In this document: piece by piece, positions 13,309 through 33,390 of the stretch
Position numbering within the stretch: position 1 is the stretch's first letter
Layout of the letters: every line of letters starts with the position of its first letter
Source: Methanomassiliicoccales archaeon
GTDB taxonomy: Archaea > Thermoplasmatota > Thermoplasmata > Methanomassiliicoccales > JAAEEP01
Length of the DNA stretch: 45,875 bases
NCBI GenBank assembly: GCA_013415695.1
Contig: JAAEEP010000015.1
Location: 1-45,875, forward strand
Direction: 5' to 3'
Position numbers and translations under genes: made by a program
Notes under the pieces: generated by a model
What the model saw: the letters and a program-made list of their open reading frames with translations, nothing else
Database searches by the model: none
Told to the model about the DNA's origin: nothing

Positions 13309-13671
13309 ATGGATGGCGAGAGGATTTCACTGCGCCTAGAAAGGGAAGACCTCGAGCTCATCGACCGTTTCATAGAGGAATCTGAGGAGATATCCAATCG
13401 GTCGCAGCTTGCTAGAATTGCCATCCGCTCATACATAGAAGGGGTAAGCTCCCAACCCTCGCAGGGAGCCGATAACAGGATCAGCATTATTGTTCCCAGA
13501 CCAGCAATGGGGACGATAAAGCGGTATGTAAGGGATGGGGTATACAAATCGATGGTCGAAGCCATCGAGAGCTGTGTGCGTGAACACTTCATAACCAAGG
13601 AATACATGGAAACGCTGAAGAAAAGGGCTCTCGAGGAGGAGCTCAACACGATCAGCGTGATATCCGATTGA
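13309..13671 (+). CDS. Ribbon-helix-helix transcriptional regulator (CdrS-like)
   Basis: A 120-aa protein. Residues 4–45 form an RHH fold: strand ERISLRLERED, then two helices ending SNRSQLARIAIRSYIE. A second segment begins with another strand-like stretch (NRISIIVPRPAM), followed by helices (KSMVEAIESCVREHF). AGGTGG precedes the ATG by six bases. It lies directly upstream of the FtsZ-like gene in the same direction, as the short RHH regulator CdrS does with ftsZ2 in haloarchaea, where it controls cell division genes. The CdrS link is an inference from fold and position. The TATGAC repeats upstream are candidate operators. Confidence 0.82.
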   Translation: MDGERISLRLEREDLELIDRFIEESEEISNRSQLARIAIRSYIEGVSSQPSQGADNRISIIVPRPAMGTIKRYVRDGVYKSMVEAIESCVREHFITKEYMETLKKRALEEELNTISVISD

Positions 13672-13803
13672 TTCCGGCGGACAAATAGTCAGCCAACGAG
13701 CAATGTCCGTGCAACTTGGGGCCAAGAAGGGATGGGATGCGCGGTTCTGTTTGGCGAACAGCTTGAGCTAATATGCTCACAATGACCTCATGGAGGAAAG
13801 GGG

Positions 13804-14625
13804 ATGATGGAGAAATCGGTATTGGAAGAACAAATAGTCACCATGCTCACCAAGGGCCTTGTCAAGCCCAAGATCGCCGTGGTGGGCTGCGGAGGAGCAG
13901 GCAACAACATCGTTCACAGTGTATACTGGAATTCTAGGAACGAAGTGGAGACGATAGCCGTCAACACCGACGAGACCAAACTAGGAAAGATAGAGGCTCA
14001 CAAGAAGGTCCTTATTGGCAAAGACATAACCAAAGGACGTGGTGCCGGTGGATTCCCTGAGGTAGGCGAGTACTGCGCCGAGTGCGCGAGAGAGATCTTC
14101 GAGGACATGCTGAGCGAGAGCGATATCGTGTTCGTGATCGCTGGCATGGGCGGAGGAACCGGTACTGGTGCTGCCCCCGTTATCGCTAAGATAGCCCGGG
14201 AAAAAGGTGCTGTGACCTTCGCAATAGCCATTAACCCCTTCTCACATGAGGTCGACAGAACCAAGAGGGCGAAGGAAGGAATAGGTAAACTGAAGGAGGC
14301 GGCAGAGACCACCATCGTTCTGGAGAACGACAGGCTCCTCGATATTGCGGGCAACCTTGCCTTGAGAGAGACCTTCTCTATAATGGAGAGGAGCATCATG
14401 AAGATCATTGAATCGGTGGACAGCAAGATCAGCGAGTCATTCTTCCTGCAAATCGAGACCGACGTAAAGGAGATGCTGGACGAGATGAATGAAGCGGAAC
14501 TGGAGGACCTCAGTGACCTCACATCGAGGCGCCCTGAACCTCCCGTGCCCATGCCCCACGCCGAACTGGGGATGGGCGGTCCGGATTTCAGCCCAGGATT
14601 CGGTCCGGGCCTAGGTCCGCTTTGA
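13804..14625 (+). CDS. FtsZ-family GTPase, truncated: GTP-binding domain only
   Basis: A 273-aa protein, against roughly 360–390 aa for canonical FtsZ. The N-terminal half is clearly FtsZ: KIAVVGCGGAGNNIV (about residue 23), VNTDETKL, LIGKDITKGRGAGG, GMGGGTGTGAAPVIA (about 115), and helix H7 beginning DRLLDIAGNLALRETFSI. After H7 the catalytic T7 loop (NxDFAD) is not present; SFFLQIETDVKEM occupies that place. The C-terminal domain is missing and is replaced by an acidic stretch and a Pro/Gly/Phe-rich tail. No frameshift is visible: the frame ends cleanly, and a strong terminator follows 30 bases later. GGAGG lies seven bases before the ATG. It should bind GTP but may be unable to activate hydrolysis in a neighbouring subunit. 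Confidence 0.9.
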   Translation: MMEKSVLEEQIVTMLTKGLVKPKIAVVGCGGAGNNIVHSVYWNSRNEVETIAVNTDETKLGKIEAHKKVLIGKDITKGRGAGGFPEVGEYCAECAREIFEDMLSESDIVFVIAGMGGGTGTGAAPVIAKIAREKGAVTFAIAINPFSHEVDRTKRAKEGIGKLKEAAETTIVLENDRLLDIAGNLALRETFSIMERSIMKIIESVDSKISESFFLQIETDVKEMLDEMNEAELEDLSDLTSRRPEPPVPMPHAELGMGGPDFSPGFGPGLGPL

Positions 14626-14654: not shown

Positions 14655-14690
14655 GGTGGGAGGTCACTCCTCCCACCTAAACTGTTTTTT
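14655..14690 (+). terminator. Hairpin terminator after the FtsZ-like gene
   Basis: A perfect 9-bp stem, GGTGGGAGG (14655–14663) with CCTCCCACC (14669–14677), has a 5-base loop and is followed by a T-run at 14685–14690. It separates the RHH–FtsZ unit from the convergent por–ior operon. Confidence 0.8.
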
Positions 14691-14752: not shown

Positions 14753-15358
14753 CTAGAACTGGTCCATGATCTCCATCGCTGCCTGGTAACCACCCTGGAA
14801 TGCCCTCTCGTTCATGTCCCTGAACTTCTTGGGCACACGATATAAGAGAGACTCCTTAAGTTCCTCCACGTACAGAGGGAATCCCTTTACGGCCGCCACC
14901 GCCCCAATAAGGACGGAATTGGTAGCAATGGCGCCTCCGAATTCGATGGCAATTTCCGTGGCGTTCACAGGAATGACCTTGCTGCTAGCAGACCTCATCT
15001 TCTCGATTATGTACTCCAGGTCAGGATATTCATCCGCTCCCATGGACACCGTGATCGGTATTATGGGGTGTGTGTTAGCCACGATGTAGGTATCCTTGTT
15101 GGCATACTCCAGCGAGCGGTAGGCCTCGATGGGCTCGAATGCCAGAAGGAGATCGGCTCCTCCCTTGGGGATCAATGGTGAAATGACATTATCCCCCATT
15201 CGAATCGTTGAGGTGACGCTGCCCCCTCTCTGGGCCATTCCGTGGACCTCGCTCATGGTTACATCCATGCCCTTGCGCATCGCGGTCTCCCCAATCACCA
15301 TGGATGCCAGGAGCACGCCCTGACCGCCCACGCCAACCATTTGGATGTTGTATTTCAC
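14753..15358 (-). CDS. iorB: Indolepyruvate:ferredoxin oxidoreductase, beta subunit
   Basis: A 201-aa protein of the 2-oxoacid oxidoreductase gamma-domain family: MVGVGGQGVLLASMVIGETA, SEVHGMAQRGGSVTSTIR and DLLLAFEPIEAYRSLEY. IorB pairs with IorA to oxidise aryl pyruvates, from aromatic amino acids, to aryl-acetyl-CoA with ferredoxin as acceptor. The GTG start overlaps the iorA stop codon by four bases, so the pair is translationally coupled. It is the last gene of the six-gene por–ior operon. Confidence 0.94.
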   Translation of the reverse strand: MKYNIQMVGVGGQGVLLASMVIGETAMRKGMDVTMSEVHGMAQRGGSVTSTIRMGDNVISPLIPKGGADLLLAFEPIEAYRSLEYANKDTYIVANTHPIIPITVSMGADEYPDLEYIIEKMRSASSKVIPVNATEIAIEFGGAIATNSVLIGAVAAVKGFPLYVEELKESLLYRVPKKFRDMNERAFQGGYQAAMEIMDQF

Positions 15359-17196
15359 TGGTCCACCTCCTCGATGGCCTTCTTAGGGCAGACCTGAGCG
15401 CAAACACCGCACCCTATGCACATGGTCTCCTCTATTACCACATCGTCTCCCACCCTGAAGAGAGCGGGACATGACAATTTCTCGACGCAGGTGTAGCACT
15501 TGTTGCACTTCTCTTGATCCACCTTGTACTGCCCCTTCGTCAATCGCCTCTCCTTCTTTAGGGCTAGGGGACAGGGTTTCTCCGCTATTATCACCGCCAC
15601 GCCGTCGTATTCAAGCGCCTCCTTCATGGCTGCCTGGGTTCCCTTCAAGTCATAAGGGTCCACGGTCTTGACGTAGCCAACGCCCAGACCTTTCACCAAG
15701 GGCTCGATCTTGATGGCCTCTGATGTCCATTCACCGTGCTTCCTTCCGGTCCCAGGGTGAGGTTGATGGCCGGTCATGGCGGTGGTCCTGTTATCCAGTA
15801 TTACCAGAACGAATCGATGATCGTTGAATACCGCGTTGATCAGCCCCGGAACGCCCGCATGGAAGAATGTGGAATCCCCTATGAAAGCCATCACCTTCTG
15901 GTCGGTTGCCTTGGAGAATCCACCCGCTGCACCGATGCTCGATCCCATACAAAGCAGGAAATCGCCCATTGTTAGCGGTGGTTGCACTCCCAAAGTGTAG
16001 CATCCTATGTCGATGCTATAGACCACTTCCTTCTTTCCAACGGCCCTCTTTGCCGCGTAAAAAGTGCCCCGGTGCGGACAGCCTGCGCAGAGCATTGGTG
16101 GTCTCCGCGGAAGGGCTATCTTCTCGACATCAAGCGGGAGCTTTCTTTCCTCCACGGACACCAGTTCCGAGAGCGATGCGATGATGTCAGGGTTGAACTC
16201 GAATGCCCGTGGGAGATGTCCTGTCCGCTTTCCGTACACCGGGACACCGATGTTATGACCCTTTGCGATCCTCAGTACCTCGTCCTCAAGGAACGGTTCC
16301 AGCTCTTCGATGACAATTACGAACCTCTTGTCCTTCATGAAATTGGCTATCTTCTTCTCGGGGGAGGGATTTGTAAAGCCCAGCTTCAGTATTTGCACTC
16401 CTTTCAGCCACTCCTTGACGTAGGTGTAGGATACTCCACAGGTGATGACTCCTATTTCGCCCTCACCCTCTACGAAGTTGAGAGGCGAGTTCTCGGCCAT
16501 CTCCATCGCCCTCTCCCAGCGCTCAAGCTGGGCGATGCGATCGAGGCGGGCGTGAGCCGGAATGCAAACAAATCGCTGCGGATCCTTCTGAAAACGTCCT
16601 CTCTGCTCGATCTCCGGGATCTTCTCGAGTTCGATAATTGCGCGAGCATGGTTCACTCTGGTAGTGGTCCTGTAAAGCACGGGTGAGCCCAGCTCCTCTG
16701 AGATCTTGAAACCCATTTTGAGCATATCCTTGGCTTCCTTGGGAGTGGATGGCTCAAGCATGGGAACCAGGGCGAGCTTAGAATAGAATCGATTGTCCTG
16801 CTCGTTCTGGCTGCTGTGGGCTGTAGGATCGTCGGCGGTCATCACAACCATGCCTCCCCTTACACCCGTGTAGCCGAGGGTGACAAATGCGTCACTCGCC
16901 ACGTTCAGCCCAACATGTTTCATGAAGACGAAAGCCCTTAAACCGGTTGCTGCAGCCGCTCCCGCGACCTCCATTGCAACCTTCTCGTTGGTCGAGTACT
17001 CGAAGTACATTCCCACCTTTTGGGCCACTCTCTCTAGAACTCCTCCCACTTCCGAGGACGGGGTGCCCGGATAGGTAGCCGCGATACTGACACCTGCTTC
17101 CATGCAGCCTCGGGCGATCGCCTCGTTCCCTAGGAGAAGGAGTTTCCCGGATTCGGCGACTATGTCGTCCAGAGGTTCACCCCTTGCTCTGTTCAA
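15355..17196 (-). CDS. iorA: Indolepyruvate:ferredoxin oxidoreductase, alpha subunit
   Basis: A 613-aa fusion of pyrimidine and thiamine-diphosphate-binding domains plus a C-terminal ferredoxin domain. Motifs: KLLLLGNEAIARGCMEAG and TYPGTPSSEV at the N-terminus; a THDP region with MLCAGCPHRGTFYA, GDSTFFHAGVPGLINAV and ILDNRTTAMTGHQP; and two [4Fe-4S] motifs, CNKCYTCVEKLSC and CIGCGVCAQVC. It oxidises aryl pyruvates together with IorB. The start overlaps the end of porB by 20 bases: the TTG at 17196 is taken, though it sits very close to its GAGG site. The conserved part begins about 18 residues later, and CTG at 17172 behind AGGGGTGA is an alternative. Confidence 0.95.
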   Translation of the reverse strand: MNRARGEPLDDIVAESGKLLLLGNEAIARGCMEAGVSIAATYPGTPSSEVGGVLERVAQKVGMYFEYSTNEKVAMEVAGAAAATGLRAFVFMKHVGLNVASDAFVTLGYTGVRGGMVVMTADDPTAHSSQNEQDNRFYSKLALVPMLEPSTPKEAKDMLKMGFKISEELGSPVLYRTTTRVNHARAIIELEKIPEIEQRGRFQKDPQRFVCIPAHARLDRIAQLERWERAMEMAENSPLNFVEGEGEIGVITCGVSYTYVKEWLKGVQILKLGFTNPSPEKKIANFMKDKRFVIVIEELEPFLEDEVLRIAKGHNIGVPVYGKRTGHLPRAFEFNPDIIASLSELVSVEERKLPLDVEKIALPRRPPMLCAGCPHRGTFYAAKRAVGKKEVVYSIDIGCYTLGVQPPLTMGDFLLCMGSSIGAAGGFSKATDQKVMAFIGDSTFFHAGVPGLINAVFNDHRFVLVILDNRTTAMTGHQPHPGTGRKHGEWTSEAIKIEPLVKGLGVGYVKTVDPYDLKGTQAAMKEALEYDGVAVIIAEKPCPLALKKERRLTKGQYKVDQEKCNKCYTCVEKLSCPALFRVGDDVVIEETMCIGCGVCAQVCPKKAIEEVDQ

Positions 17197-18076
17197 CCTT
17201 CCTCAGGAGCTCCTCGTACTCTTCATCGACCATGGCCTGTATCTTAATGGCCATATCCTCTGAGATCCGTCTGAAGCGTCCCTGAGTCTTCAGGTACTCC
17301 GAAACCGGCTTTCTCTCTTTTATCGTTTTAGTAAGCCTGTATTCGTTCCCCTGCACCTCGTACAGGGGGAACATGTTGGTCTGAGTAGCTAGGCGAGCCA
17401 CCTCGACCGTCTTGGCGGTATCGACGCGCCACCCAGGTGCGCACGGGGACAAGGCATGGATGAACTTTGGCCCCTCGTACTCGGTTGCCTTCCTTACCCT
17501 CTTGACGAAATCTTCTGGGTAGGCAACGTTGACAGTAGCACCGTAGACGATACCGTTGGCCACCATCATCTCCATGATCTTCTTCTTCCTCTGAAGGATG
17601 ATCTCACACTTCTTGCCCAGTGGCGTTGTGGTGGTCCACGCCCCGATCGGCGTGGAACCGCTGCACTGGATACCGGTGTTCATGTAGGCCTCGTTGTCCA
17701 TCATGACATAGATGAAGTCAGTGCCCCTGTCCACCGCACCCGAGAGTGCTTGTAGACCTATGTCCACGGTCCCGCCGTCGCCTGCCCAGCCCAGGACGGT
17801 CGCATCCTCAATACCCTTGGCGTCAAGGGCGGCCCTGATTCCGGAGGAAACTGCTCCAGTGCTCTCGAAGGCATGGTCCATCATATCGAACTTGAATGCC
17901 GTTCTGGGCCAGACCCCGCCTATGACGGGGGTGCAGCCCGCGGGGACGTTCATGATTACCCGGGGGCCCAACGCCTTCATGGTGTATCTCATGGCCAGAG
18001 GTGCACCGCAACCCGGGCAGGCCGCGTGTCCCCTGTAAAGGTACTCTTCCTTTGGAAGGGGTAGCTTTGCCATCAT
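17177..18076 (-). CDS. porB: Pyruvate:ferredoxin oxidoreductase, beta subunit
   Basis: About 299 aa with the THDP-binding signature of PorB: HAACPGCGAPLAMRY near residue 20, GWAGDGGTVDIGLQAL, and MDNEAYMNTGIQ…GSTPIGAWTTTTP, which is specific to pyruvate rather than 2-oxoglutarate enzymes. The extra Cys pair in CPGCG and later Cys residues would hold the proximal [4Fe-4S] cluster. The ATG at 18076 overlaps the porA stop codon (ATGA) and follows GGAGGTG; the next codon is also ATG. The enzyme converts pyruvate and CoA to acetyl-CoA, CO2 and reduced ferredoxin. Confidence 0.95.
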   Translation of the reverse strand: MMAKLPLPKEEYLYRGHAACPGCGAPLAMRYTMKALGPRVIMNVPAGCTPVIGGVWPRTAFKFDMMDHAFESTGAVSSGIRAALDAKGIEDATVLGWAGDGGTVDIGLQALSGAVDRGTDFIYVMMDNEAYMNTGIQCSGSTPIGAWTTTTPLGKKCEIILQRKKKIMEMMVANGIVYGATVNVAYPEDFVKRVRKATEYEGPKFIHALSPCAPGWRVDTAKTVEVARLATQTNMFPLYEVQGNEYRLTKTIKERKPVSEYLKTQGRFRRISEDMAIKIQAMVDEEYEELLRKVEQSKG

Positions 18077-19263
18077 TCCCACCTCCTTGGTCCGCCTTTG
18101 AGGGCAACCCAATCGATAATGCGGTCCACCTTGCCTTTCTTGCTCAGTGACAGAAGGTCCTCGAAAATTAGTTCAATGTTCTTCTTGGTCACGTCCCTTC
18201 CTCCCAGACCGCCTATGTAATTCTTGATCGGAACTCCGTCGGGTGAATATAGGGCATTCCTGATCTCCTGGAAGAATGCTCCGCCCTGACCCATGGTGTA
18301 ACTCTTGTCGAACACGCCGACCATGGAGACCATGTCGTTGAGCTTGACCAACTCTTCACCTGGGAACGGTCGGAATGACCTGAGCTTGACCAGCCCCACC
18401 TTCTTGCCTCTGTCTCTCATCTCATCCACCACATCCTTGGCGGTTCCAGTTGGAGCTCCAGCGATCACCAAAGCGACATCGGCATCATCACAGCGGTAGA
18501 ACTCCACAAGGCCGCCGTAGCTCCTGCCGAATCTGCGCTCAAAATCCCTTTCGACCTCCACGATCTTCTCCTTACTGTGCTCCATATCAAGCATACGCCG
18601 ATAGCGGTGCTCTTGCCACCAGTCAGGGGCGAGCACTCCCGCATATCTCCTAGGCTCGCTTTTAAAATCGATCTTGAACTCCGGATCGAAGGGAGGTAGA
18701 AAGTCGTCGACCTCCTCTTGTGATGGCATATCCACCGCCTCGACGGTGTGGGAAAGTATGAACCCGTCCTCTATCACCATGGCAGGTGTCATGATCTCCC
18801 GGTCCTCGGCTATCTTGTAGGCCATGATTGTCATGTCGAGAGTCTCTTGGTTGTTCTCACAGAAGAACTGCATCCAGCCCGCATCCCTCTCGCTAATAAC
18901 ATCAGAATGATCTGACCAGATGGTCCACGGGCCGCTTAGGGCCCTTGCGGCCACAGGCATGACGATGGGCCTGTTCACACCAGCTGCCCAAATGAGGTTC
19001 TCGTGCATTAGGGCAAGACCCTGCGATGAGGTTGCAGTGAATGTTCTAGCGCCTACGTACGAGGCTCCTATCACGGCGGCCATAGCGGAGTGCTCACTCT
19101 CGACCTTGATGTATTTGGCGTCCATCTCACCTGTGTCCACAAGCTCTGCTAGCTTCTCTGAGATTGATGTCTGAGGAGTGATGGGATAAGCCGCGATCAC
19201 CTCCACGCGTGAGAGCTTAGCGGCGTATGCAGCGGCGTAGTTTGATGTGATTATCTCTATCAT
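18073..19263 (-). CDS. porA: Pyruvate:ferredoxin oxidoreductase, alpha subunit
   Basis: About 396 aa, the usual size. Motifs: AYPITPQTSISEKLAEL, KVESEHSAMAAVIGASYVGART, TATSSQGLALMHENLIWAAG, SDHSDVISERDAGWMQFF, and a C-terminal transketolase-type domain ending GGLGGRDVTKKNIE. It forms the core heterodimer with PorB. The ATG at 19263 is preceded by GGAG; the upstream in-frame codons lie inside porD. Confidence 0.95.
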   Translation of the reverse strand: MIEIITSNYAAAYAAKLSRVEVIAAYPITPQTSISEKLAELVDTGEMDAKYIKVESEHSAMAAVIGASYVGARTFTATSSQGLALMHENLIWAAGVNRPIVMPVAARALSGPWTIWSDHSDVISERDAGWMQFFCENNQETLDMTIMAYKIAEDREIMTPAMVIEDGFILSHTVEAVDMPSQEEVDDFLPPFDPEFKIDFKSEPRRYAGVLAPDWWQEHRYRRMLDMEHSKEKIVEVERDFERRFGRSYGGLVEFYRCDDADVALVIAGAPTGTAKDVVDEMRDRGKKVGLVKLRSFRPFPGEELVKLNDMVSMVGVFDKSYTMGQGGAFFQEIRNALYSPDGVPIKNYIGGLGGRDVTKKNIELIFEDLLSLSKKGKVDRIIDWVALKGGPRRWE

Positions 19264-19265
19264 TC

Positions 19266-19538
19266 TTACTCCTCCCTCACCATCTCGATGGCATCCTTTG
19301 GGCACTCATTGGCACAGATGCCGCATCCCTTGCAGTAGTCCAGATTGACAGTTGGGAAATCGTCCGCCTCCTCTACCTCTATGGACATATCTGGGCAGAA
19401 CTTCCAACATATGTAACAGCGGATGCATTTCTCCTCGTCGATCACCGGCCTCATAGTCCTCCAGTTACCAGTCATGATGTCCTCAGTTGACTGAAGGCTC
19501 ACCGGAGTGGAGGGTAGATCCTCGTAACTCCTAAGCAT
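19266..19538 (-). CDS. porD: Pyruvate:ferredoxin oxidoreductase, delta (ferredoxin) subunit
   Basis: About 90 aa with two [4Fe-4S] motifs, CIRCYICWKFC and CKGCGICANEC, each followed by Pro, as in PorD. It carries electrons from the catalytic core to external ferredoxin. The ATG at 19538 follows GGGGGTG; a GTG two codons earlier overlaps the porG stop codon and is the alternative start. Confidence 0.94.
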   Translation of the reverse strand: MLRSYEDLPSTPVSLQSTEDIMTGNWRTMRPVIDEEKCIRCYICWKFCPDMSIEVEEADDFPTVNLDYCKGCGICANECPKDAIEMVREE

Positions 19539-19540
19539 TA

Positions 19541-20092
19541 TCACACCCCCTTCACAGAATCGAATGCTTTCCTAGCGGCCTCAGCATTCTGCTCCTTCTT
19601 TGCCGGAGCCGCCTGCTTGATGCTCTCGATGACGTTCTCGATCTTCACTCTAGGGCAGATAGCAGCGAACGCTCCGATCACCGCGGTGTTCACGATAGGA
19701 GCGGCCATGCTGCCCAATCCCATATCAAGTGCGATGCCCGTCGCATCTACCGTGAATATCTCACGATCGGTTTTGAGTCCTAACTCCTCTGGTGACTTGG
19801 GCGAATTGATAAGCACTTTACCATTTTCCTTGATGCCATCCAGGACATTCACCATCTTGATGAGCTTGGCATCAAGAACGACCACATAATCAGGTTCATA
19901 AATACCAGCATGGATCCTGACAGGCTTGTCGTCGATCCGGCAGAAAGCCATAACCGGTGCCCCCCTCCTCTCCGATCCGAAAGAGGGAAATGCCGATGCC
20001 TTCATTCCGTCCATGATCGCGGCCCTGGCCAGGAGTTCCGAGGCCACCACGGCCCCCTGGCCTCCCCTTCCATGGAATCTGATCTCTATCAT
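19541..20092 (-). CDS. porG: Pyruvate:ferredoxin oxidoreductase, gamma subunit
   Basis: A 183-aa protein. Motifs: [45 protein letters not shown], and [25 protein letters not shown], all typical of the gamma domain that binds CoA and shapes the active site. It is the first gene of the operon porG–porD–porA–porB–iorA–iorB, in which every junction overlaps or nearly does. The leader has a TATA box at 20128–20135. Confidence 0.95.
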
Positions 20093-26243: not shown

Positions 26244-26729
26244 TCATCTCCATATCTCAAGTTTGAATTGTAGTTCCCCTCCCAGGATCGGCATCTCACT
26301 GTAAAGGGAGGAAGGCCACACACATTCTGCATTGATTGGAACATCTCCGATTAGAAGCTCATCGGATCCAAGAATGACCCTCCAGGCGAAGTTGGTCCAG
26401 GAAGGAATCAACCCCTCAATCATTTCTGCTATTTCTTTTATTTCTCGCTCGTATGAATTGAGATCCTCTCCCCTGTTCAAAGCCAGGAAATATGCAATGG
26501 CAAAATCGCTGACAGTGATCCATGTGTTCTCATACTCTCCTGAACTCGTCATCTGTACAGTGGTCCTGAGAACGACCTCATGTGCCCTGTCCACATAGTC
26601 TCTGAGGTCCACCTCTTGATCCTGATATCGATTCGAAGTCACTGCTACCAGTGAAACTGAGACAATTGCCGCAACCGTGAGGAATATCATAGCATCAAGA
26701 AGGGCTGCTTGACCTCGCTTACCTGGCAT
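26244..26729 (-). CDS. Pilin-like protein with class III-type signal
   Basis: 161 aa. The N-terminus reads MPGKRGQAALLDAMIFLTVA: a KRG|Q site like those cut by archaeal prepilin peptidases, followed at once by one hydrophobic helix and then a polar ectodomain with regular strands. It lies one base after the neighbouring pilin-like gene, so the two are certainly co-transcribed. With the Tad-type ATPase and TadC-like genes nearby it is probably a minor pilin or pseudopilin of an archaeal type IV pilus-like machine. Confidence 0.72.
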   Translation of the reverse strand: MPGKRGQAALLDAMIFLTVAAIVSVSLVAVTSNRYQDQEVDLRDYVDRAHEVVLRTTVQMTSSGEYENTWITVSDFAIAYFLALNRGEDLNSYEREIKEIAEMIEGLIPSWTNFAWRVILGSDELLIGDVPINAECVWPSSLYSEMPILGGELQFKLEIWR

Positions 26730-26730
26730 G

Positions 26731-27216
26731 TCACCACGTCCAAACTCTCAGCAAAGCGGGTCGCACATCCTTGGGGGAGTGGTAAACATTGATCGGCATC
26801 GATAGACAGCATCTCTCCCCCTCAATATACGATCCATTCTCTCCCAGAACAATCGTGGATTCAGGGGAGAGTTCGTTGATCACCAGCTTGAATTCATTTT
26901 CGATGTCAATCTTTGATAAGTTGATGTGCGCTAGGGCGGAGTGTTCTATCACCCCCTCGTCTATTAGGAGAGAGCTGTCGTCCAAAACTAGGTTCATCAA
27001 TTCCTGACATCGGCTATCCAATTCAGAATCCGCTACATCATCGATTGCTATGATATAGAATGATAATGTCAAAATTAGCAATCCAGAAGTAACAATCATG
27101 ATCGCTAAGATGCTCTCTATGAATCCCCCGATGCCCTTTTTGTCTTGAGCGAGAGGATTTGGAGTCGTTATCCTGCAACGGGGTTCATTTCCCTTTGGCT
27201 TGAAGGCGATCCTCAT
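26731..27216 (-). CDS. Pilin-like protein with class III-type signal
   Basis: 161 aa. About 29 mostly basic or polar residues end in KKG, then IGGFIESILAIMIVTSGLLI forms the membrane helix, followed by an acidic ectodomain. The KKG|I junction and an acidic residue at +6 match the pattern in the neighbouring pilin-like protein. It is downstream of the U32 gene in the same direction with a 70-base gap. Likely a structural or minor pilin; an anchored ectodomain protein is the alternative. Confidence 0.7.
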   Translation of the reverse strand: MRIAFKPKGNEPRCRITTPNPLAQDKKGIGGFIESILAIMIVTSGLLILTLSFYIIAIDDVADSELDSRCQELMNLVLDDSSLLIDEGVIEHSALAHINLSKIDIENEFKLVINELSPESTIVLGENGSYIEGERCCLSMPINVYHSPKDVRPALLRVWTW

Positions 27217-29320: not shown

Positions 29321-29887
29321 ATGAGGATATTGCATAAAAAGAGAATCGCCCCAATCAATTCAAGAGGATCATATTCTTACACGAATTGCCATCATACCCG
29401 GGATGATGGAGAATTGATCATTGATTGTCACTCCTGCTCTGGGGGGCAGGGTTTGAATGATGACCATTGCTTCCGATCCGTGTTGAGGGTGCTTTCTTCC
29501 GGGGCTAGAGTTGACAGTCTGATACTATCTGGAAACTGGGAGGTGAGCTATGGTGGTGATTGCGTTCGTGCGATGTGCTCCCTTGCTTCGGTGGTACGAT
29601 TCTGCCAGGAACTTGCTAGGACGTCCACCATGTTTCAGGATTGTAAGGGATGCGTTCTCTCCCCTGAGAGATTCTTCGGACAACTGGTTGATAGACTTCC
29701 CATAGTCCCTAATGCTGAACAGTTGTCTTCTTTTCAAGTTCAATCGGCGAAGCACCAGAGCGCTTGCAAGGAATGTGTCGACCGTTCGAGATCCAAACTG
29801 CTGCAGATTGATTTCGCGATTGAAGAATTAAGGAAGTATGTGGCTAGAAGTGCCTACATGGTGGTGGAGGCAGGAGATGGGAACTAG
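29321..29887 (+). CDS. Cys-rich protein overlapping the secretion ATPase gene
   Basis: 188 aa with several Cys motifs: DCHSC, DCKGC, ACKEC, plus single Cys residues. A helical C-terminus (KLLQIDFAIEELRKYV) follows. The last 11 bases overlap the start of the ATPase gene in another frame, so it is made together with it. The Cys pairs suggest zinc or Fe–S binding. From position and character it may be the separate N-terminal domain of the secretion ATPase, as long archaeal ATPases carry an N-terminal extension; this is inference. Confidence 0.65.
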   Translation: MRILHKKRIAPINSRGSYSYTNCHHTRDDGELIIDCHSCSGGQGLNDDHCFRSVLRVLSSGARVDSLILSGNWEVSYGGDCVRAMCSLASVVRFCQELARTSTMFQDCKGCVLSPERFFGQLVDRLPIVPNAEQLSSFQVQSAKHQSACKECVDRSRSKLLQIDFAIEELRKYVARSAYMVVEAGDGN

Positions 29888-31628
29888 GATCGTGATCAAG
29901 CCAACGGGTCGCAAGTCCTTTAGGTCCCCACTCCCGGTGATTAGGGGGATGGAGCAGCTTATCAGCAATGGTTCAAGAAAACGTCCCTTCTTTTCCAGTT
30001 GCTGGATTTCTCCACCCATGCCCATTGGGGCCGAGGTGGTCGAAAGCTATTGTGTTAAGGGCGCCGAGGTCAGCATATTGTCGTTATCTGGTGGGACAAG
30101 ATTCCTTTATCATTTGGTGCCCTGGGAATATAATGTTCCTGATGAATGGATGGGTATGCTCAGGCTAGCCGTCGACGACATTTTCAGAAAACCACCGGAT
30201 AGATTGGGAGCATCCATGGATGAGCTCAGGTATCTTGTTGTGTCCAGGACCAGAGAGGTACTGGGCAACCTGATCGAATCGAATAGCATCGGAGCGTCCC
30301 GAAATCCTATGGAAAGGATGGAGATTCTAACGAACCTTTCAGAGGTGGTGGGTCGATATACAGTTGGCTTTGGTCTCCTTGAGGTTCTGCTCTCTGACGA
30401 TAGGATAGAGGATATCTTCATCGATGCTCCCTGTAGCCTGAACCATATACATGTGAGCCTAGGTGGTGTGGGTGATGATACCTCCGTGCTCAGGTGTCCG
30501 ACCAACATTGTGGCCTCTGATTCGGAGATCCAGGGGCTTGCTTCCCGGCTCAGACAGATGAGTGGGAAACCATTCTCACAGGCGTTCCCAGTTATGGAAA
30601 CGGACATTCCTAATTTTCAAACCAGGGCCACATTGGTAGCTCCTCCTCTCAGTCCCGCTGGGATAGCGGTGGCTCTGAGGAGACGATCCAGGATCCCTTG
30701 GACGCTGCCCAGGATGGTGGAGAACGGGACTCTCGATTCAACGACAGCAGGTCTTCTGTCTTTCCTCATGGACGGCTGTTCGACAGTACTAATCGCTGGG
30801 GCAAGAGGTTCTGGAAAATCATCCCTGCTCAGCGCTATGCTCTTCGAATTTCCGCTTTCACAGAGGATACTCACTATTGAGGACACAGCTGAGCTTCCTG
30901 TCAAACAAATGCAGGAGATGGGGTTCAATGTTCAATCTTTGGTGGTCGAACATGGCATGGGTGAGCGAATGGAGCTGAAGACCGAGGAAGCCCTCAGGGT
31001 ATCTCTGAGATTGGGCGAATCCGCGATCATATTGGGTGAGGTGCGTGGAAAGGAAGCCCAGACCCTCTACGAAGGAATGAGAACCGGTAGGGCTGGATCA
31101 TCGGTTCTCGGTACCATTCACGGTGACTCAGCCAGATCTGTATTCGAAAGGGTGGTGCACGATATGGGGATAGCTCCAGAGGCCTTTGGAGCCACGGACG
31201 TAATAGTCACCATGGGTCTCCTCAGACCTCACGGCGCACAGCGTCAGATCAGATGTGTGATGGAGATAGCTGAACTCGCCAAAGATAGAGGACCAGGGGA
31301 GTTCAACACTTTGGGAAGGTATGATCTGATCGATGGTAGGATGGAGCTGAATCTAAAAGGCTCCGATACTATGAGAAGGATCTCTGAATCATGGGGGATC
31401 GAAGAAGAGCAATCCCTGGAGAACATCATGATGAGGACAAGGATCCGGGATAGGCTTGTCAACATAGCCTCCAAGAGGGGCCCGGAATTCCTATCGCCCC
31501 TCTGGCTTTGCAGGTGTAACGAGTTCCTTTGGAAGGAGATGACCTATCCAGATTCCACCCCAGAGATGATCGAGGCTAACTTTAACGAATGGTTGGTCAG
31601 GAGGGTGGGCGCTGAAGATATCCTATGA
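29877..31628 (+). CDS. Type II/IV secretion (Tad/pilus) ATPase
   Basis: About 583 aa. The C-terminal motor has GARGSGKSSLLSA (Walker A, about residue 307), TIEDTAELP, SVRL-like RVSLRLGESAIILGEVRGKEA (Asp box replaced by Glu in Walker B, about 386), and TGRAGSSVLGTIHGDSARSV (His box). The N-terminal half is the N1/N2 region with EDIFIDAP. This is the VirB11/GspE superfamily, of the type that drives archaeal type IV pili and Tad-like machines. ATG 29877 follows GGAGGCAGGAG; an ATG 13 codons earlier is possible. TadC-like protein, the Cys-rich protein and two pilin-like genes lie around it. Confidence 0.9.
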   Translation: MGTRIVIKPTGRKSFRSPLPVIRGMEQLISNGSRKRPFFSSCWISPPMPIGAEVVESYCVKGAEVSILSLSGGTRFLYHLVPWEYNVPDEWMGMLRLAVDDIFRKPPDRLGASMDELRYLVVSRTREVLGNLIESNSIGASRNPMERMEILTNLSEVVGRYTVGFGLLEVLLSDDRIEDIFIDAPCSLNHIHVSLGGVGDDTSVLRCPTNIVASDSEIQGLASRLRQMSGKPFSQAFPVMETDIPNFQTRATLVAPPLSPAGIAVALRRRSRIPWTLPRMVENGTLDSTTAGLLSFLMDGCSTVLIAGARGSGKSSLLSAMLFEFPLSQRILTIEDTAELPVKQMQEMGFNVQSLVVEHGMGERMELKTEEALRVSLRLGESAIILGEVRGKEAQTLYEGMRTGRAGSSVLGTIHGDSARSVFERVVHDMGIAPEAFGATDVIVTMGLLRPHGAQRQIRCVMEIAELAKDRGPGEFNTLGRYDLIDGRMELNLKGSDTMRRISESWGIEEEQSLENIMMRTRIRDRLVNIASKRGPEFLSPLWLCRCNEFLWKEMTYPDSTPEMIEANFNEWLVRRVGAEDIL

Positions 31629-33390
31629 AGATACCTACCTGTGGCTGGTGAATAATCTCGCTTGGTTCATAGCCCCATCCTTCTTCCAGAGGGCGTTCTT
31701 GCCCAAGAAGGACCCCCGTGTAGAAAGGTGGCTTGAATCAAAGAACCTGAACTGGTCAAATATCATGGGAGCCTCTTGGGGGCTGTTCATCCTCATGATG
31801 AGCATATCCCTAGGGATTCTGATCATTGATTCAATGATTGGCTTCGATCTGACACTCATGTTTCCCATGCTACTCTCTCCCCCTATCGCGGCTGCTTTGA
31901 TCTCAAACGCCCCGAAGGGTCTAGCACACAATGAGGAGAAGGTAATGACCGCAGAATCCCCGAGAATGATCGCGAGCATCACGATGAGCATGCAGGCACG
32001 CCCCAATCTGGAAATGGCGGTCATCTTTGCCTCTCAAAGAGGGGGAGGAGTGCTCTCTTGGAAACTCAGAGAACTTCTATGGAGCGTTCTCACAAGGCGT
32101 GAAGGGGACATGATCTCGGCAATGCTCTCCTTCAATTCCAGGCTTTCCGATTCCAACGATGGCCTCAGGCAGGCTCTGCACCTTGTGGTCTCCGCCAACT
32201 TCGAAAGGACGAAGGACGGTCTGGAGCGACTTCTTGATAAGGCCAATCAGATAATACTAGAAAGCTTGAAGGAGGCTGTAGATCGCTACGCATCCTCACT
32301 CACGGTTCCCACTATGGTCTTATTCTCCATCGGAATAATAATGCCCGTGATGCTTTTCGCCCTTCTCCCTCTCCTGTCAATGGGGAGCATGGCCACCTCC
32401 TCCCTTCAATTGACAAGTGGAGAGATGTTGAGTGAGGAGGTCATCGCCCTACTGATGTTGCTGGTATTTCCCTTATTCTGCTTCCTCTATGCGCGTTCCA
32501 TTCTGGAAAGGAACCCCATCAGAGTGATGGATGTTCTAGAGGTAGGATTTCATCCATCTATCCTCCTTCTCCCGGTTTCCTGGGTATTCATGGGTACTCT
32601 CTTGACTATACTTCCTCTTGGAATGCATGGTTCGTACGTCTTGCTGATGGTCATATTCCTCCCACCCTCAGTGTATCTACTCCTGAGGTCCAAAAGCGGG
32701 GGAACGAGCACTAGGAGAGAAAAAAGAACGGAGAAGGAGTTCGCCAACGCTCTCTATCAGATTGGAAACAGGATGCTGACTGGAGCTAGTTTCGAGGTAG
32801 CCTTCGAAGAAGCGGCTAATTCCATGGATGGTTCTCATTTCTCGAGATATGCTAAAAGGGTAGTCCAGCTCTCCAGAATTTCCAGAGAGGACATCACCCT
32901 TCTGGTTGGCAGGTCAGATCTCATAGGGGTGGAATCATCGGTTTTAGAGGCTGCAATGAACTCCGTTGCCGACTCCGCCAAGAGGGATCCTCTGGCTGCG
33001 GGCAAGGTTGCGCTAAATCTTGCTCAGAGCATTAACGACCTGAGAAGAGGTGAAGCCCGTGTCGAAGAGAGGCTGAGGGGGGTCATTGACATGATGAGGT
33101 CTACAGCCTTGCTCTTTGCCCCAATCGTCCTGGGAATTACCAGCTCCTTGTTTGGAGTGATCGGGGCCCAGACCGGCCAGCCCTTAGGGTCGATGGAGGG
33201 AATCGCGCTGATCGTCGGCATTTATCTGATGGAACTGGGATTCATCGTGACCTACTTCACCACATTTCTTATGGGCGAGGGAGGATGGAAGGAAGTTGGC
33301 ATGCAGTTTGCAGCAAGAGCGCCACTCTCGCTTCTAGTCTTTGTGTTAACCTCGCTGTTAAGCATGAACGGTATGCTCTCGATGACGTGA
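31612..33390 (+). CDS. TadC-like pilus assembly platform membrane protein, possible CTG start
   Basis: About 592 aa. It contains two type II secretion F-like repeats: cytoplasmic helical regions (residues ~110–215 and ~355–475) each followed by TM pairs (MVLFSIGIIMPVMLFALLPLL; STALLFAPIVLGITSSLFGV), with extra TMs at the N-terminus, in the centre and at the C-terminus. It anchors the pilus motor in the membrane. A GTG at 31648 gives 580 aa but has no ribosome site. CTG at 31612 lies seven bases after AGGAGG (31599–31604) and adds KISYEDTYLWL, natural in composition. The gene overlaps the ATPase gene by 17 bases from CTG. Either start is possible. Confidence 0.8.
   Translation: MKISYEDTYLWLVNNLAWFIAPSFFQRAFLPKKDPRVERWLESKNLNWSNIMGASWGLFILMMSISLGILIIDSMIGFDLTLMFPMLLSPPIAAALISNAPKGLAHNEEKVMTAESPRMIASITMSMQARPNLEMAVIFASQRGGGVLSWKLRELLWSVLTRREGDMISAMLSFNSRLSDSNDGLRQALHLVVSANFERTKDGLERLLDKANQIILESLKEAVDRYASSLTVPTMVLFSIGIIMPVMLFALLPLLSMGSMATSSLQLTSGEMLSEEVIALLMLLVFPLFCFLYARSILERNPIRVMDVLEVGFHPSILLLPVSWVFMGTLLTILPLGMHGSYVLLMVIFLPPSVYLLLRSKSGGTSTRREKRTEKEFANALYQIGNRMLTGASFEVAFEEAANSMDGSHFSRYAKRVVQLSRISREDITLLVGRSDLIGVESSVLEAAMNSVADSAKRDPLAAGKVALNLAQSINDLRRGEARVEERLRGVIDMMRSTALLFAPIVLGITSSLFGVIGAQTGQPLGSMEGIALIVGIYLMELGFIVTYFTTFLMGEGGWKEVGMQFAARAPLSLLVFVLTSLLSMNGMLSMT

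Follow-up and report, generated by a model that had tools for sequence, protein, structure and literature searches.

FtsZ is a tubulin-like cell-division protein, and both FtsZ and tubulin are understood via head-to-tail assembly, in which the T7 loop of one subunit completes the GTPase site of the next. In the FtsZ of Staphylococcus aureus, a subunit uses its top face, near the nucleotide (H1, H2, T3, T5, and the H6-H7 loop), to contact the bottom face of the next subunit (T7, H8, S9, and H10). Assembly is lost with either the D46A or the R143Q substitution; a GTP-bound monomer arriving at a filament most likely binds through its top face to the growing, T7-exposing end; and MciZ, a bottom-face binder, caps FtsZ (PMC8936486). 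A cdrS-ftsZ2 operon is known in other archaea, namely, Haloferax and Halobacterium (PMC7439475), and a GID-type C-terminal motif has been defined for SepF-anchored archaeal FtsZ (PMC8178401). Finally, Makarova and Koonin described in 2010 the FtsZl1 family, suspected of forming a filament without a T7/C-terminal-domain face (PMC2875224).

Set beside these systems, the short FtsZ encoded in the window (the whole stretch of DNA analyzed here, 45,875 nucleotides from a Methanomassiliicoccales archaeon; Table 1) belongs to a genuine, evolutionarily conserved, and distinct FtsZ subfamily that has neither the T7 loop nor the C-terminal domain and is encoded behind a ribbon-helix-helix (RHH) gene. 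With the archaeal FtsZ2 of the cdrS-ftsZ2 operon, it has in common the superfamily, the GTPase domain, and the RHH gene directly upstream; FtsZ2, however, carries a T7 loop, a C-terminal domain, and a GID-type tail, and the short FtsZ is without all three. Canonical FtsZs (S. aureus FtsZ, Methanocaldococcus jannaschii FtsZ1) share about 39 to 44% identity with it over the nucleotide-binding half (ca. 43% for S. aureus FtsZ), and yet, unlike them, it cannot form both protofilament faces, because everything after H7 is missing. FtsZl1 likewise has no recognizable T7 region or FtsZ C-terminal domain but is highly diverged, with family inserts, a coiled coil, and a helical C-terminal domain of its own (PMC2875224), whereas the short FtsZ is closely related to FtsZ and ends in a short tail, with no FtsZl1-type coiled coil or helical domain after the GTPase domain. 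MciZ and SulA, bacterial inhibitors that bind FtsZ ends, would share with it the action proposed below, i.e., occupying the bottom (T7) face and blocking growth; these are unrelated small proteins, whereas the short FtsZ would act as a subunit mimic with GTP at the interface.

Table 1. Features of the short ftsZ locus (positions within the window)
Feature	Coordinates	Strand	Evidence
CdrS-like RHH regulator, preceding short ftsZ in the conserved gene pair	13309..13671	+	PF01402, 1.6e-5; NCBIfam NF058555 (CdrS), 6.3e-7
Conserved leader element AAGGGATGGGATGC, candidate regulatory DNA/RNA	13727..13740	+	Lies between rhh and short ftsZ
Shine-Dalgarno sequence GGAGG	13792..13796	+	7 nt 5' of ATG, by sequence
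Short FtsZ open reading frame (GTPase half only), 273 aa	13804..14625	+	Start and stop as first annotated
FtsZ GTPase (nucleotide-binding) domain, residues 23-198, T1-T6 intact	13870..14397	+	PF00091 (residues 23-182), AF2 model, PDB alignments
Extended H7 helix, residues 187-227, in place of T7/start of C-terminal domain	14362..14484	+	AF2 model
Additional acidic helix, residues 230-241	14491..14526	+	AF2 model
Disordered Pro/Gly-rich tail	14527..14622	+	pLDDT 44-63 over most of it; tails compared among relatives
Hairpin and T-run, probable transcription end	14655..14690	+	Lies between convergent genes

The GTP-binding signatures, read as intact in the first-pass annotation, are indeed so: the PF00091 match is strong (6.2e-42; 144.5 bits against a cutoff of 33), and the G-box glycines are invariant across 55 aligned members. 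A domain search found no FtsZ_C (PF12327) in the protein, and the NCBIfam ftsZ model (TIGR00065) scored 227.4 bits, under its cutoff of 295.2, aligning only at model positions 16 to 228 of 353. The T7 motif (NxDFxD) was reported missing as well, and it is found neither in the short FtsZ and its 54 aligned orthologues (0/55) nor in 18 further members (0/18). An AF2 model built from the 55-sequence alignment (mean pLDDT, 88.7; core, ca. 98) returned the predicted FtsZ GTPase core with no C-terminal domain; in Foldseek, this core superposed on FtsZ crystal structures, including that of S. aureus, at ca. 1.2 Å over ca. 190 residues, the C-terminal domain having no counterpart. The description of a protein ending just after H7 was right in that T7 and the C-terminal domain are missing, and needs correction for what takes their place, since H7 is modeled as a single helix of 41 residues, after which come a helix of 12 residues and the disordered tail. 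A tail motif is partly conserved (PHAEL...FGPGLGPL here, LIHADLxPM...FGPSMFG in relatives), with conserved residues in several families. By inspection, the tails of the short FtsZ and its relatives contain no SepF-binding motif of the GID type, and no canonical SepF peptide was found in them.

The signals expected of a functional gene (a clean stop, a terminator, and a good ribosome site) were all recovered; the terminator-like element consists of a perfect 9-bp hairpin (14655-14677; -19.3 kcal/mol) with TTTTTT starting 7 nt further on. Only about 128 bp separate the short ftsZ from the convergent gene downstream, which leaves no room for a hidden C-terminal domain there. An Rfam scan around the gene gave no match.

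Taking as close short orthologues those with an E value below 1e-50 and an open frame of about 245 to 340 aa (upstream read-through included), we found them in 38 of the 45 genomes of Methanomassiliicoccales families f1 to f4 and f6. The distribution of PylS, together with the match of an f5 PylS to the PylRS structures 6jp2 and 6ezd, identifies the order as Methanomassiliicoccales; we take these structures to be Methanomethylophilus alvus enzymes, and family f5 is presumably the Methanomethylophilaceae. Matches to the short FtsZ occur in 95 of the 102 f5 genomes, and their orthology is supported, despite an identity of 27 to 39%, by the shared gene neighborhood (RHH, leuS, and indolepyruvate oxidoreductase genes). 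A profile search of 400 genomes of the class added short members from five more of its families (f8, f16, f20, f24, and f26). Beyond the class, the best matches among 77 sampled genomes of the phylum were full length, apart from a few short frames. A single-protein search of the contig collection was uninformative, returning one bacterial FtsZ. The 99%-complete genome G125 keeps full-length FtsZs and has no close short orthologue, so that the short form is dispensable there. Comparison of close pairs gave Ka values far lower than Ks for the core (e.g., 0.009 versus 0.37 and 0.067 versus 0.88) and lower than Ks for the tails as well, where constraint is weaker; the subfamily is under purifying selection. 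As a separate observation, several near-complete genomes of the class had no FtsZ match at an E value of ≤1e-20 (G177, G193, G225, G237, G248, G291, G303, and others, from genera g56 and g88 of family f22). These may belong to the same group as Picrophilus, Acidiplasma, and Ferroplasma, from which FtsZ is given as absent in an ESCRT survey (PMC11188069).

In all 21 loci of the order that were inspected, eight of them from the Methanomethylophilaceae, an RHH gene lies directly upstream of the short ftsZ on the same strand; leuS adjoins in 17 and indolepyruvate oxidoreductase genes are nearby in 15. The class-level loci also have an RHH gene upstream, with the exception of one at a contig end. 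At 29.3 bits, under the NF058555 cutoff of 100, the window's RHH protein is, as far as profile scores tell, related to CdrS and not the haloarchaeal equivalog. The leader between the two genes holds a second conserved feature: GGGATGGG was found in 46 of the 65 upstream regions, whereas no 8-mer exceeded 5 in shuffles, and the element has 1 to 5 copies per genome against 0 for a control pattern. Most short ftsZ genes of the order have a near-invariant AGAAGGGATGGGATGCAC about 60 to 90 nt 5' of them, in many cases with a hairpin after it (the window and loci L184, L185, L189, L191, L192, L198, L202 to L204, L209, and L211). With weak covariation support, the element and hairpin make a candidate for a new RNA or regulatory element. 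In family f20, the AGAAGGGATGGGATGCAC element also lies 5' of the full-length ftsZ2. Separately, a copy of the element forms part of the loop of a conserved hairpin (GGGAAGGGCTAG...CTAGCCC..TTCCC), in which 24 bases of the loop are invariant; this hairpin, present in families f1, f2, f4, f5, f6, f8, and f20, had no Rfam match.

The upstream gene also bears on the origin of the subfamily. Full-length FtsZ2-type copies, whose T7 reads NLDFAD or similar, are immediately preceded by an RHH gene, and none was seen upstream of the FtsZ1-type copies checked, i.e., those grouping with M. jannaschii FtsZ1. In the phylogeny of the GTPase domain that had been proposed as a check (IQ-TREE; 77 domains, CetZ sequences left out), all short forms fell on one side of a single branch, set off from full-length FtsZ with support of 96/99. 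Since the columns of this tree extended into H7 and T7, it was rebuilt with columns cut before them and a bacterial sequence added, and the split held at 95/85. The attachment of the short clade among the FtsZ2-type copies is weakly supported, and the trees do not settle the root or the precise sister. The short ftsZ thus looks like a duplicate of the cdrS-ftsZ2 module devoid of the C-terminal domain; the C-terminal half would have been lost in a common ancestor of several lineages of Thermoplasmata, a single loss being the simplest history.

The genome containing the window (2.0 Mb, 99.6% complete) encodes seven PF00091 proteins, namely, the short FtsZ, one degenerate copy, and five full-length FtsZs, in agreement with the suggestion that a full FtsZ would be encoded elsewhere. 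FtsZ_C matches in this genome equal the full-length FtsZs in number, leaving no orphan domain that could represent a separately encoded C-terminal half. The degenerate protein (G000:C4:76669-77193; L118:4325-5221) has GGDTGSY for the G-box GGGTGTG, no T7 motif, and a weak FtsZ_C match (0.024).

The Methanomethylophilaceae, by contrast, have essentially no full-length FtsZ: FtsZ_C was detected in 45/45 genomes of families f1 to f4 and f6 versus 2/102 genomes of this family, both matches being weak, and several of the genomes without it are single-contig assemblies of 98 to 99% completeness. A typical genome holds two tubulin-superfamily genes, encoding the short FtsZ and a protein of 270 to 300 aa derived from FtsZ2, which has an RHH neighbor too. 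This FtsZ2 remnant (loci L119 to L125, L128, and L134), kept in most of the family, has T7 deleted (VSVGMSKL in G104 and PFFSTF or similar elsewhere, versus NLDFADL in the FtsZ2 of the window's genome) and T2/T3 shortened, although a two-domain FtsZ fold is still predicted (pLDDT, 88.6; TM score of ca. 0.8 to FtsZ). Judged by its sequence, the short FtsZ is the only FtsZ left in this family with intact GTP-binding signatures, and in G023, G110, G116, and G117 (genera g10, g20, and g21; 94 to 99% complete), no other tubulin-superfamily protein was detected. Nearly all genomes of f1 to f4 and most of f6 have a clear SepF, which is weaker in many Methanomethylophilaceae genera and is not listed for g18 and g20; its erosion, to the point of being weak or undetectable in several genera, appears to parallel the loss of full-length FtsZ. 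A search of the order for ESCRT-III as a substitute divider gave nothing above the cutoff, a weak test given that the Sulfolobus control also fell under it. The open-access literature, to which our survey was confined (subscription literature being outside its scope, so that priority is not certain), yielded no account of FtsZ in either Methanomassiliicoccales or the Methanomethylophilaceae, of the short subfamily, of the disappearance of full-length FtsZ from this family, or of any archaeal FtsZ without the C-terminal domain; FtsZ goes unmentioned in the comparative-genomics and ISO4-H5 genome papers, and the ESCRT survey discusses those Thermoplasmata that have no FtsZ at all (PMC11188069).

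What, then, might the short FtsZ do? In species with a full FtsZ, the best-fitting mechanism would be capping or regulation of the latter's filaments, as the first-pass annotation had offered among its suggestions. The short FtsZ would be a GTP-binding head with a top (nucleotide) face and no bottom face. By geometry, GTP-loaded heads would dock, through their conserved top surface, on the growing end of a full-length filament (most likely of FtsZ2), where the bottom (T7) face is exposed. Having no bottom face of their own for a further subunit to bind, they would stop or meter growth there, and hydrolysis of their GTP by the T7 loop of the filament might then release them. The tail may recruit, or be held by, a partner, and the CdrS-like upstream regulator could set the dose. 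We give this capping mechanism a probability of roughly 0.4. It is favored by the five coresident full-length FtsZs, the one-branch split, the RHH pairing like that of ftsZ2, the low Ka, the consistent loss of T7, the published polarity, and the kept top face: among the 55 members, D46 is kept as D56 in 54, R143 as R152 in 48, and N25 as N35 in 51. Against it, the equivalents of Q48 and R67, which contact the partner, are not conserved, and G125 does without a short orthologue. Moreover, about 100 Methanomethylophilaceae genomes retain the subfamily although no canonical FtsZ with T7 and the C-terminal domain is detectable in them; a partner at the T7 end is therefore not a general requirement, and capping cannot be the whole story. 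Because the head is kept there with no T7 partner, in that family it would have to act alone as a GTP switch or in a complex with the T7-less FtsZ2 remnant.

The first of these, a GTP-dependent molecular switch acting outside filaments, is a serious if tentative alternative for the subfamily at large; the GTP/GDP state of the head would control a partner bound via the tail or the extended H7, such as a membrane anchor, a DNA-bound CdrS-like regulator, or another divisome protein. Retention of the short ftsZ together with the RHH gene, the conserved tail residues, and survival in genomes devoid of any T7-bearing FtsZ, in some of them as the sole detectable tubulin-superfamily protein, all agree with such a role. 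Conservation of the D46 and R143 equivalents at the filament interface, however, would not be expected if FtsZ contact had been abandoned, and no GAP-like partner is known.

The new kind of GTP-dependent assembly that the first-pass annotation also suggested would be a polymer or dimer built without T7, in which the GTP face contacts a new surface (the extended H7 and the extra helix) or two top faces enclose GTP between them; it seems rather improbable to us. The predicted 41-residue H7 and extra helix might provide that surface, and the family is kept where canonical FtsZ is absent; to our knowledge, however, no tubulin-superfamily filament is known without a T7/C-terminal-domain face, FtsZl1 being the suspected exception. 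Still harder to credit is an obligate unit in the Methanomethylophilaceae, in which the short FtsZ would supply the GTP-loaded top face and the T7-deleted remnant the C-terminal domain and bottom face of a stable, nonhydrolyzing filament or heterodimer. Most good genomes of the family hold exactly these two proteins, and the remnant's predicted two-domain fold would suit such a unit, though it is without T7 and part of T2/T3; only the short form is seen in g10, g20, and g21, however, and outside the family it coexists with an intact FtsZ2. Finally, we dismissed a pseudogene, a frameshift, a chance or assembly artifact, or a split FtsZ with its other half elsewhere, for which the missing half alone speaks, since orthologues in dozens of independent genomes are equally short, with synteny and purifying selection, and the genome has no orphan FtsZ_C. 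Neither of the findings that would have refuted the first-pass reading, full-length orthologues or a separate C-terminal half, was made, and the earlier judgment that this is not a pseudogene stands.

Capping thus remains our preferred reading where a full FtsZ is present, and it suggests a previously unrecognized regulator of archaeal Z-filament ends, a subunit mimic. For the Methanomethylophilaceae, a bolder and, on balance, unlikely proposal is that they divide or remodel membrane with a tubulin-superfamily system devoid of any T7 loop or canonical protofilament faces, such that the GTPase half suffices without canonical filaments or canonical GTP hydrolysis. A subfamily reduced to the nucleotide-binding half, together with this family, which includes gut methanogens, makes the need of head-to-tail assembly for FtsZ function directly testable and invites one to ask how a tubulin relative can function once its filament-building and GTP-hydrolyzing parts are gone.

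Two other loci in the window deserve mention. Beside the short ftsZ, at 14753-20092, lie two adjoining gene sets for TPP-dependent ferredoxin oxidoreductases, the first of the indolepyruvate type and the second a 2-oxoacid oxidoreductase set, in a neighborhood kept in much of the order. Further along, at 26244-27216 (minus strand) and 29838-33390 (plus strand), small, N-terminally hydrophobic proteins that look prepilin-like by eye are encoded near a large ATPase and a multispan membrane protein, an arrangement resembling an archaeal pilus/type IV filament locus.
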